Assembly: GCF_017695965.1 (NCBI RefSeq)
Contig: NZ_JAAORM010000005.1
Coordinates: 1 to 64,000, forward strand
From: Prochlorococcus marinus CUG1416
GTDB taxonomy: Bacteria; Cyanobacteriota; Cyanobacteriia; PCC-6307; Cyanobiaceae
Reading direction: 5' to 3'
DNA: 64,000 nucleotides
The position numbers and the translations under genes are program-made. The notes below the pieces were generated by a model. That model did no database searches. It was not told the origin of the DNA and was given only the letters and a program-made list of their open reading frames with translations. Shown piece after piece: positions 47,489-49,398 of this stretch. The first letter of the stretch is position 1. Each line of letters begins with the position of its first letter.

Positions 47489-47598
47489 GTGCTTTGTGGA
47501 TGTCTCAACTTTCTATTCCCATTCAGTAGTAGTAGAAATAATTCACTATTCAAAAGCACTTAATCTAATTTGTGGACAGAGAGGTGACTAAGACTAGA

Positions 47599-47750: not shown

Positions 47751-47936
47751 ATGAGCACTAAATGGGATGACAAATCTTGGCAGAAAGATTTCTTAAATAT
47801 GAAGTCACATTCCCCCTCAGATGCGAAACTCTTAATGGGAGTTGTAAAAGGATTAAAAGATGCATGGCGTCTAGGTGTTCTGCATGTTGAATACGAAAGA
47901 CTGAAGAAAATTCAGGAGGAACAGCAACAGCAATGA
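47751..47936 (+). CDS. small helical protein, 61 aa, first of a pair
   Basis: Product MSTKWDDKSWQKDFLNMKSH..., then LLMGVVKGLKDAWRLGVLHV and a Gln-rich tail (EEQQQQ). It overlaps the next start by four bases (ATGA). Both genes share the pattern W-Q-K-x-x-L near the start, so they may be related. Function unknown; two amphipathic helices. Confidence 0.6.
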   Translation: MSTKWDDKSWQKDFLNMKSHSPSDAKLLMGVVKGLKDAWRLGVLHVEYERLKKIQEEQQQQ

Positions 47937-48175
47937 AAGAAAAATTTAACTGGCAGAAAGAATTATTAGAAAGTGGAAAATTTAATGATAAATTTTCAAA
48001 AAATCTTCTAGAGCATGGAGCAAAAAACTTTATGCAAGGAATCTATCTTGGATATATGTACTCAAGATGGAGAAAAATAAGAGGTTTAAATAAATATGAT
48101 CCTGTAGAGAATGCAGGTCAAATGCAATCATTATTCAAAGATTTTGAAAAAAAATCAAATGAAGATGATACGTAA
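47933..48175 (+). CDS. small helical protein, 80 aa, second of a pair
   Basis: MKEKFNWQKELLESGKFNDK..., then FMQGIYLGYMYSRWRKIRGL and an acidic tail (KKSNEDDT). Coupled to the 61-aa gene by an ATGA overlap. The shared N-W-Q-K-E-L-L motif supports a common origin. The two proteins may interact. Family unknown. Confidence 0.6.
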   Translation: MKEKFNWQKELLESGKFNDKFSKNLLEHGAKNFMQGIYLGYMYSRWRKIRGLNKYDPVENAGQMQSLFKDFEKKSNEDDT

Positions 48176-48414
48176 TTCCCTATAAAATAATCAGAATCAC
48201 TCATTATTAACAAGAGATCTCAAGGAATCCACCAACACCATATTTCGTCAATCAAATATCCACCAAAACATTAAAGATATCCCCCACCACATCCAACAAA
48301 ACTTATAAAAATAAAAACCAACACTATTTAAACTGATATTTTCTAGAACTCTTCTCTATCATTGCAATTTGAACTAGAACTCAAGAAATCAAGAGTACTA
48401 GTTATCCTATTAAA

Positions 48415-48426
48415 CCGGAGAGGGTG
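48415..48426 (+). repeat. partial copy of tRNA-Ser 3' end (possible att site)
   Basis: CCGGAGAGGGTG, identical to the tRNA-Ser 3' terminal region plus its discriminator side (49249-49260). The two copies are in the same orientation, 834 bp apart, and bracket the 141-aa gene. Integrases that target tRNA genes typically leave this kind of direct repeat. A chance 12-bp match so close by is unlikely. Confidence 0.65.
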
Positions 48427-48446
48427 TTCATAGAGTGATTTTAATA

Positions 48447-48476
48447 TGAACAGTCCTGAACAGGTCTGAACAGGTT
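48447..48476 (+). repeat. three TGAACAG iterons at exact 10-bp spacing
   Basis: TGAACAG occurs at 48447, 48457 and 48467; the second and third copies are followed by G. A reverse-oriented TGTTCA is at 48425-48430, inside the tRNA-like copy. Ten-base spacing puts the sites on one face of the helix. This pattern fits recombination-arm or repressor sites. Confidence 0.6.
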
Positions 48477-48496
48477 TTTAATAAAAAAATTTAAAT

Positions 48497-48568
48497 ATCA
48501 CAAACATATCACAAACACACAACACAAAAATACTTAACTAAAGTCAAACAATATAATTTATTTTTTTG
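48497..48568 (+). repeat. direct repeat, copy A (about 70 bp)
   Basis: Begins ATCACAAACATATCACAAAC and ends in TTTATTTTTTT. Roughly three quarters of its bases match copy B at 49120-49190, including CTTAACTAAAGTCAAA. The two copies flank the minus-strand gene 48589-49014 in the same orientation. Confidence 0.7.
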
Positions 48569-48588
48569 TTTGAAAAAATTTTCAGAAA

Positions 48589-49014
48589 TTATAACTTGTT
48601 GAATTTCTCTGCCGCGATACAAACAGGTTCTCCCATGCCAATTTCTCTAGTCTTTTTTTTACCATTCAGTGCTGAAGCGCAAACATAGGATGATTTATTA
48701 TAAGTATATTTATATCCTGCCAAATTTTTAATAACTCCACTTCCACTGCAATACCACAGGTTCCCATCAGGGTATGATTCTTTCCTACAAGAAACATTTT
48801 CTTTTTTAAATTTTACTGTAGAACCATTTGATAATTTTATCTTTGCTTCACCTCCAAATAAAACTGCATTACCAAGAAAGATAATTATTATTCCTCCTCC
48901 AATTTTAGTAATGTACTTATTTTTATTGTTTCTTCCATACCAAGATAAAAAGTTCTTCTTATATGGATCGATAAACTTGAGTATTTTTTTTAAAGAATCT
49001 TCTATTTCAGACAT
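48589..49014 (-). CDS. hypothetical membrane-anchored protein, 141 aa
   Basis: One hydrophobic helix (about residues 37-54, TKIGGGIIIIFLGNAVLFGG) after a charged N-terminus. The predicted extracellular or lumenal part has four Cys (SCRKES, WYCSGS, YVCASA, PVCIAA). It resembles a small Cys-rich exported domain. No integrase or known phage motif. It lies between the two copies of the 70-bp repeat and the tRNA-like att repeats, so it may be recent cargo. Family unknown. Confidence 0.55.
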   Translation of the reverse strand: MSEIEDSLKKILKFIDPYKKNFLSWYGRNNKNKYITKIGGGIIIIFLGNAVLFGGEAKIKLSNGSTVKFKKENVSCRKESYPDGNLWYCSGSGVIKNLAGYKYTYNKSSYVCASALNGKKKTREIGMGEPVCIAAEKFNKL

Positions 49015-49119
49015 ATAAAATAAATTTTTTAATTAATAATAACTTAATGCTTTCAAAAAATCATCTTTTGTTGGAGAATAAAAAACTAAAATTGGAAATC
49101 ACAAACACTACATTTAGAA

Positions 49120-49190
49120 ATCACAAACATATCACAAACAGACAAAAACCAAAACTTAACTAAAGTCAAAAAAGGTGATTTATTTTTTTT
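49120..49190 (+). repeat. direct repeat, copy B (about 70 bp)
   Basis: ATCACAAACATATCACAAAC, then AGACAAAAACC and AACTTAACTAAAGTCAAA, ending in a T-run. Diverged copy of 48497-48568. It lies 60 bp before the tRNA-Ser gene. A third, shorter ATCACAAAC unit occurs at 49098. Confidence 0.7.
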
Positions 49191-49249
49191 AAAAACATTT
49201 TCGTATAATCATTTCTGGGAGTTTCTACAAAACATAAAATTAGAATATC

Positions 49250-49334
49250 CGGAGAGGGTGGGATTCGAACCCACGAATAGTTACCTATTAAACGATTTCG
49301 AGTCGTTCGCTTTCGACCACTCAGCCACCTCTCC
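49250..49334 (-). tRNA. tRNA-Ser (anticodon CGA)
   Basis: Minus-strand cloverleaf: acceptor GGAGAGG / CCTCTCC, D-arm with GGCTGAGTGGTCGAAAGC, anticodon loop CTCGAAA with CGA, a long variable arm (TTTAATAGGTAACTATTCG) and the T-arm GTGGGTTCGAATCCCAC. CCA is not encoded. The gene reads codon UCG. The 3' end (49250 side) points toward the repeat region. Confidence 0.97.
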
Positions 49335-49398
49335 AGGCTTTATTGATTATCTACAAAATTGAATCAAAAAAATAAGGTCTATTTATTTATCTTAATTA

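Follow-up and report, generated by a model that had tools for sequence, protein, structure and literature searches.

A putative one-gene, integrase-less element with a phased-box left end at tRNA-Ser(CGA) of Prochlorococcus marinus CUG1416

Introduction

Hackl et al. 2023 reportedly described tycheposons as elements of Prochlorococcus that target tRNA genes and possess a tyrosine recombinase of their own. Integron cassettes are one-gene units that lie in arrays, are separated by recombination sites, and have their recombinase elsewhere. A size of 4-200 kb is quoted for tycheposons (PMC10872708), and integron gene cassettes are also described in PMC4119200. CIMEs keep attL and attR, lack genes for integration, are found in tandem arrangement with elements related to them, and are described as decayed ICEs or IMEs (PMC5704250). 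The ssrA islands of Dehalococcoides are likewise tandem, and their boundaries are direct repeats, 20 bp long, of the 3' end of the RNA gene; 15 of these islands are without an integration module (PMC3146451). In Methylopumilus, repeats of the last tRNA bases lie beside a variable island (330 bp to 42 kb), and in Alteromonas cassettes are added at a tRNA (PMC10872708 and PMC4119200, on additive islands). The att sites of the lambda integrase combine a core with distant arm-type sites and involve the accessory protein Xis (PMC4880445).

Prochlorococcus genomes are small, yet they gain and lose genes constantly. We analyzed a stretch of 64,000 nucleotides (the window; positions 1 to 64,000 of the forward strand of contig NZ_JAAORM010000005.1) from the genome of P. 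marinus CUG1416, whose assembly comprises 1,672,347 bases in 5 contigs with a completeness of 100. Below, G000 denotes the window's genome, the other G-numbers the compared genomes of the genus (mostly drafts, one per species, all from species other than that of the window), C-numbers contigs and L-numbers fetched loci. Our literature search, beyond the reach of which the original tycheposon description lay, found no paper on phased boxes at tRNA-Ser in Prochlorococcus. We consider it likely, with a probability of roughly 0.8, that positions 48415-49260 are a non-autonomous integrative element of 834 bp with one gene, which may in principle be moved by the integrases of related elements.

Results

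A first-pass annotation made from the letters of the window alone had pointed to a direct repeat of CCGGAGAGGGTG at 48415 and at the 3' end of tRNA-Ser(CGA), 834 bp apart, and to three TGAACAG boxes at exact 10-bp spacing. Both were recovered without a mismatch, the repeat at 48415-48426 and 49249-49260 and the boxes at 48447, 48457, and 48467. The two cores lie on the same strand and are the sole matches in the window when up to two mismatches are allowed. The features of the locus and of the unit upstream of it are the following.

47577..47586, + strand: possible degenerate core of the upstream unit; a weak match with one substitution and one deletion, one of two such matches in 4.4 kb
47751..48175, + strand: two small ORFs, of 61 and 80 aa, that make up the cargo of the upstream unit; in G013 and G042, homologous stretches serve as unit cargo
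48291..48414, + strand: right end of the upstream unit, with homology to sequence that flanks distal cores in G042 and G002
48415..48426, + strand: distal attachment core CCGGAGAGGGTG, an exact copy of the 3' end of tRNA-Ser(CGA)
48447..48473, + strand: the three TGAACAG boxes, proposed arm-type sites of an integrase
48489..48567, + strand: copy 1 of a direct repeat of about 80 bp that flanks the gene; spacing to copy 2, 622-623
48497..48517, + strand: two ATCACAAACA repeats of the left end (48497, 48508), proposed sites of an AlpA-type accessory factor
48589..49014, - strand: cargo ORF, 141 aa
49098..49140, + strand: three ATCACAAACA repeats (49098, 49120, 49131), 5' of the cargo gene and partly within the right-end module
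49112..49189, + strand: copy 2 of the repeat of about 80 bp, the right-end module, common to G042 and, by eye, to AG-355-N16
49190..49248, + strand: tRNA-proximal (right) end of the element, in which no TGAACA boxes were found
49249..49260, + strand: tRNA-proximal core CCGGAGAGGGTG, an exact match within the intact tRNA gene
49249..49335, - strand: tRNA-Ser(CGA), the integration target; the second core is the complement of its 3' end

The two copies of the 80-bp repeat match in two blocks that are 87-91% identical. As annotated, 48415-49260 contains no integrase gene (the genome has two PF00589 matches, both on other contigs) and one cargo gene, the single ORF of 141 aa; no product could be assigned to it, nothing having matched in Pfam, PADLOC, or PHROGs. 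Besides itself, the 141-aa protein has two weak relatives in 200 genomes of the genus, in G238 (26% identity) and G061 (35% identity), and no Ser-type core was present in the stretches of about 3 kb scanned at these two loci. The inverted box copy that had also been annotated is there as a hexamer only: TGTTCA at 48425-48430 overlaps the end of the core and is constant in four homologous left ends. It is absent from that position in the TGAACAG-box elements of MIT 9107 and AG-436-C13, so that we do not regard it as a general, functional part of the design.

To judge the core repeat against chance, the whole-genome count is decisive. The pattern CGGAGRGGGWG occurs six times in the genome, and these six occurrences pair off three times, a tRNA-Ser gene each time having a single direct copy; the copies lie 834, 9251, and 1466 bp from tRNA-Ser(CGA), tRNA-Ser(TGA), and tRNA-Ser(GCT), respectively; the fourth tRNA-Ser of the genome, GGA, has a different 3' end. 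A chance origin of the pair is excluded by this complete pairing. Shuffles of the window are not decisive by themselves for a 12-mer at two mismatches, as 14 of 100 gave at least two matches; the observed pair is exact. We then used positions 48380-49340 to search 119 genomes for tRNA-Ser(CGA) loci and fetched 58 stretches, 57 of which, that of G000 included, held the gene. In the 655,196 bases to the left of the tRNA, exact direct copies of the 11-bp core were found 23 times, in 21 of the 57 loci, against an expectation of 0.011 from base composition, and exact inverted copies were not found at all; at one mismatch, the counts were 31 direct and 2 inverted. These data bear out the annotated site-specific integration at the tRNA 3' end. 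No exact copy was present on the left side, within at most 12.5 kb, in 36 of the 57 loci, a number that may include missed copies because contig ends shorten several of the stretches. Neighboring cores (31 intervals, one mismatch allowed) are spaced 58 to 7497 bp apart. The comparison across genomes that the first-pass annotation had proposed as a check revealed alternative junctions at the same cores, not one unvarying sequence.

Most copies have the same left-end design: the core is followed after roughly 20 nt by three boxes of 7 bp at a pitch of one helical turn (10 bp), and these in turn by repeats of about 11 bp. The left end of the element has the layout of a lambda-type att site, an array of helically phased boxes at a set distance from the core. 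The box sequence itself varies from element to element (TGAACAG in the window; AGACACT, TGTCCAG, ATGAATA, and others elsewhere). Averaged over 24 non-redundant units, the self-match at lag 10 reached 13.8, versus 9.0 +/- 0.4 in shuffles. Under a stricter redundancy filter, with random places in the same loci as the control, 21 cores scored 13.1 versus 8.2 +/- 0.5 (largest of 300 controls: 9.7), and the score did not rise at lags 8, 9, 11, or 12 in this set. A further 28 non-redundant cores, taken from other tRNA-Ser genes and named records and in part related to units of the first set, scored 13.96 versus 8.0 +/- 0.4; removal of the four that had been found via the TGAACA pattern (L217:2579, L219:122, L220:6441, and L223:3593) left 24 cores with a mean of 13.3. 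Units without clear boxes (score of 10 or less) made up 7 of 31 rows in the first set and 4 of 28 in the further loci. The triple TGAACA pattern occurs, at one mismatch, in just three of 76 genomes of the genus (G000, G042 twice, and G071 once); we therefore discarded TGAACA as a genus-wide motif, the general feature being the spacing. Where the left end is common to four genomes, 76 of 106 columns are constant and the boxes are among the most constant ones. The inner repeats of about 11 bp are present in many units (ATCACAAACA in the window, CCCCCAACA and others elsewhere); their statistic was clearly raised at lag 12 (6.7 versus 5.1 +/- 0.3), slightly raised at lag 11 (5.7; largest of 200 controls 5.5), and within the control range at lag 10.

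The boxes of a unit tend to be matched at its other end. Across 27 units whose left triple is clear, the unit's own right end fitted its boxes better than the right ends of other units did (9.9 versus 8.7; 0 of 5000 permutations), in a set that included the MIT 9107 unit with overlapping ends (97 bp) and a chimeric G042 interval (1082 bp). The test without those two, from which the window's unit had been dropped as redundant with the G042 unit, gave 9.8 versus 8.8 (26 units; 2 of 20000 permutations), and 32 of 20000 permutations resulted when one of three AGACACT units was kept (24 units). Ranked against the other right ends, the own one came first in 4 of 26 units and within the top three in 11 of 26. 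When the ends were compared, the right end of the window's element showed no boxes that match (score 7, rank 17 of 27), and the right end of the homologous G042 unit, which has 83% identity to that of the window's element over 160 bp, reached a score of 8 (rank 10 of 26).

The stretches between the common ends differ in what they carry. Next to the common left end lies the gene for 141 aa in the window, no gene in G042, where the cargo-less unit measures 213 bp from core to core, and a gene for 272 aa in AG-355-N16 and AG-442-B03 (in the latter, the far end of the unit lies outside the compared stretch). To the left of tRNA-Ser(CGA), G050 and G008 have both ends in common (96% over 116 bp and 88% over 787 bp, the latter including the tRNA), with type III restriction-modification genes between them in G050 and type I genes in G008. 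We also noted that two like small ORFs surround the differing restriction-modification systems in these loci (L059, L086). The order of units varies as well. The window-type unit adjoins the tRNA in G000, and an 869-bp unit separates it from the tRNA in G042; the two small ORFs of the upstream unit lie to the left of the common flank in G000, their homologues to the right of it in G042. Both ORFs match phrog_16908, a family of unknown function. The repeat of about 80 bp on either side of the window's gene is the counterpart of the right-end module. Two units may therefore have fused to give that of the window; alternatively, the G042 unit may have lost its gene through recombination between these repeats.

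What the first-pass annotation took for a likely integration scar does not stand alone, since the genus has many such units. Short ones that possess both ends were found repeatedly (213, 261, 263, and 281 bp), and a 97-bp unit of box arrays alone lies in MIT 9107 at 1.8 kb from tRNA-Ser(CGA), with another unit between. AG-363-O16 (L217) has six Ser-type cores in a 7.2-kb contig without a tRNA, and tandem units are found both there and in G042. An AlpA-type gene (PF05930, 67 bits) follows the last core of AG-363-O16. A second one-gene cassette of the same design was seen in G000 itself at tRNA-Ser(GCT) (C5:416803-418269, L003; 1466 bp), with the boxes TTGGACA / TGGGATG / TGGGACA on the left and TTGGACA / TTGGACT on the right and, as cargo, a 288-aa protein without a Pfam match. 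At tRNA-Ser(TGA) of G000, a partial tRNA copy lies 9.25 kb from the intact gene (C2:378783-388044; L214, L005, L006); we assign this pair to a different integration class because the copy continues as a partial tRNA to about the anticodon. This partial-tRNA class is present at tRNA-Ser(TGA) and tRNA-Pro. Searches of viral contigs for packaged or circular forms came back empty: three DNA patterns and one protein profile yielded nothing (in one of these searches 28 stretches fit a peptide pattern, none of them encoding a relative), so that no excised or packaged form was seen.

Tyrosine recombinases (PF00589) were listed in 68 of 76 genomes of the genus by a search that missed some recombinases found with the profile described below. 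At the 57 tRNA-Ser(CGA) loci, neither PF00589 nor this profile gave a recombinase on the same contig at less than 70 kb from the tRNA. The profile was built from six related recombinases of 426-437 aa (alignment A1); in each case a Ser-type core and its boxes lie 0.5-1.7 kb ahead of the gene. The profile matched 24 of 200 genomes. In 19 of these it found full-length genes, 21 in all; a further genome has a broken fragment, and the remaining four gave weak matches, which fell on a different recombinase. The window's genome gave no A1 match. Against solved structures, the A1 profile hit a XerC-like recombinase (4a8e, E 0.0004) and lambda Int (1z1g, E 0.0063), and one of five A1 proteins scanned had a sub-threshold match to Arm-DNA-bind_3 (22.2 of 27 bits). 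Around the A1 genes, elements bounded by Ser-type cores lie at tRNA-Ser(GCT) and tRNA-Ser(TGA), and others near tRNA-Asn. G187 has an autonomous element at tRNA-Ser(CGA) itself, with cores 5016 bp apart and an integrase start 177 nt from the tRNA; its phased boxes score 18 of 21 at the distal end and are matched fairly well at the tRNA end (rank 3 of 27), and repeats containing ACATGT lie at the distal end and before the integrase gene. Arrays of the same pitch sit at a fixed core distance beside the integrase genes of relatives, which is why we read the boxes as arm-type integrase sites and not as the iterons that had been annotated.

In a tree of 21 integrases (without G029, which hardly differs from G025), with several open forks and two long branches, all enzymes from tRNA-Ser(GCT) fall into one starred clade, and the other half holds the tRNA-Asn enzymes, G050 (tRNA-Ser(TGA)), G027, and AG-412-P08. 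Enzymes with a CGA-type core do not form one group, as G187 and G221, both with a tRNA-Ser(CGA) core, join the GCT half. An AlpA-type gene (PF05930) precedes the integrase in 15 of the 21 full-length A1 genes, within 100 nt in 13 and at 471 and 1237 nt in two; in G187 it lies 427 nt behind the integrase and in G235 4.4 kb away, and no PF05930 match was found by the A1 genes of G225, G221, G064, and G128. PF05930 matches 29 of 121 genomes of the genus and is absent from that of the window.

A scan of the genome collection with the TGAACA pattern gave 10 records, 6 of them Prochlorococcus. In AG-412-P08, a core (GGAGAGGGTG) is accompanied by two phased TGAACA boxes; this genome also encodes an AlpA-type protein that scores above the PF05930 cut-off and an integrase of the A1 type, with 47% identity to the G050 enzyme across 403 residues. 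The analyzed stretch contains no tRNA. An element of the AG-412-P08 type is the best candidate helper for the window's element. The first-pass annotation had suggested looking elsewhere in the genome for a recombinase with matching arm sites. The second recombinase of G000, a tyrosine recombinase of 425 aa (C4:143635-144912, L131), has three boxes at 10-bp pitch 97 bp before its start, but they read GACTGCA and the enzyme belongs to another family; we do not favor it as the helper. The 16.5 kb around this gene contain no tRNA. Relatives with 91-95% identity occur in G050 (two identical copies 200 kb apart), G061, and G070 (partial). In five genomes (L130, L132, L133, L134, L149), a gene for a recombinase of 390-405 aa was observed 5' of tRNA-Ser(TGA), divergent from the tRNA.

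Discussion

The comparison of genomes supports insertion of the element by a tyrosine recombinase at the 3' end of tRNA-Ser(CGA), by which the core was duplicated and a 12-bp copy came to lie on the distal side. The three TGAACAG boxes, 20 nt from the core, would act as arm-type sites for the integrase; their pattern is plain and their binding is proposed from it. The repeats of about 11 bp are probably sites of an AlpA-type excisionase or regulator, and the gene of unknown function between the ends would be swappable cargo. The element may have been placed, and might in principle still be moved, by integrases acting in trans from autonomous relatives that possess the core, the boxes, the repeats, alpA, and int. 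From the arrangement of units, newer elements appear to insert at the tRNA and push older ones outward, which would yield arrays that differ in order between genomes.

A serious possibility, if one slightly against the odds, is that the element has this same origin and is now dead, a fossil no longer mobile in the absence of right-end arm sites and a helper. The mismatch between its right end and its boxes points that way, as do the lack of an A1 integrase and of AlpA in the genome and the duplicated segment of about 80 bp, which suggests an internal rearrangement. The core is nevertheless identical to that of the tRNA, the boxes are perfect and stand among the most constant columns of the four left ends, and the right end, common as it is to G042, looks like the family's own rather than a product of fresh decay. 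That the element is the remnant of a tycheposon in the strict sense, i.e., of a large tRNA-anchored transposon stripped of its own genes, strikes us as unlikely. Named Prochlorococcus records do have the same ends, the target is a tRNA, and relatives carry tyrosine recombinases; against this reading, no recombinase lies inside the element, and the recurring short two-ended units make small size look like a way of life and not like one loss. The partial-tRNA copies at tRNA-Ser(TGA) and tRNA-Pro, a class apart, also speak against it.

We give very little credence to a role of the boxes outside recombination, whether as replication iterons or as operators bound by a transcription factor. Tandem phased boxes are typical of regulators too, and the triple GACTGCA before the 425-aa recombinase gene of G000 would fit such a role; yet the distance to the core is nearly constant across many dissimilar units while the box sequence varies, and the boxes match the other end of the same unit better than random. 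Duplication of the tRNA tail by homologous recombination or slippage, without any site-specific recombinase, is hardly credible: it would suit a repeat of just 12 bp and a locus devoid of an integrase, but the same boundary returns in 21 of 57 loci, is never inverted when exact, and is also used by integrase-bearing versions.

Our preferred reading remains that of a non-autonomous integrative element, and the window's element belongs to a set of cassettes that is widespread, anchored at tRNA genes, free of integrases and uniform in the design of the ends. The presence of related stretches with other cargo at like spots in sister genomes suggests that the cassettes are moved by enzymes borrowed from other elements. 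A broader picture can be offered tentatively, and we regard it as possible yet rather doubtful: a genus-wide, integron-like cassette system on tRNA-Ser, in which one-gene or empty cassettes with their own ends lie in arrays, a three-box address, with one box per helical turn, picks the AlpA-Int module that acts in trans, and cargo ranging from orphan small proteins to whole restriction systems is swapped between constant ends. Elements without an integrase escape searches for integrase genes, and this route of gene exchange would consequently be undercounted. By their core-plus-box layout, such elements can be searched for and matched to their helpers, and the layout leads to a testable prediction of which integrase moves which cassette.

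The element resembles tycheposons in its insertion at a tRNA gene in Prochlorococcus and differs from them in its size of 834 bp and in having no recombinase within 48415-49260. In the islands at ssrA, a serine recombinase system is at work, and the consulted part of the source describes a conserved 15-bp motif by the repeat and no phased boxes (PMC3146451). For the additive flexible genomic islands, the consulted parts of the accounts describe no end structure, box arrays, or helper integrase (PMC10872708, PMC4119200). With lambda att sites, the left end shares a core accompanied by boxes in helical phase, which are presumed to bind an integrase. Integrons differ in that the recombination site here is the 3' end of a tRNA with phased boxes. 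The likeness to CIMEs lies in the retention of attL and attR, i.e., two direct cores, one of them in an intact tRNA, and in the lack of integration genes. Autonomous relatives of the element carry alpA and int. The difference from CIMEs is that here short units, with one gene or empty, have recurring ends that are found across species. The element can be described as a CIME-like, tRNA-anchored additive island.
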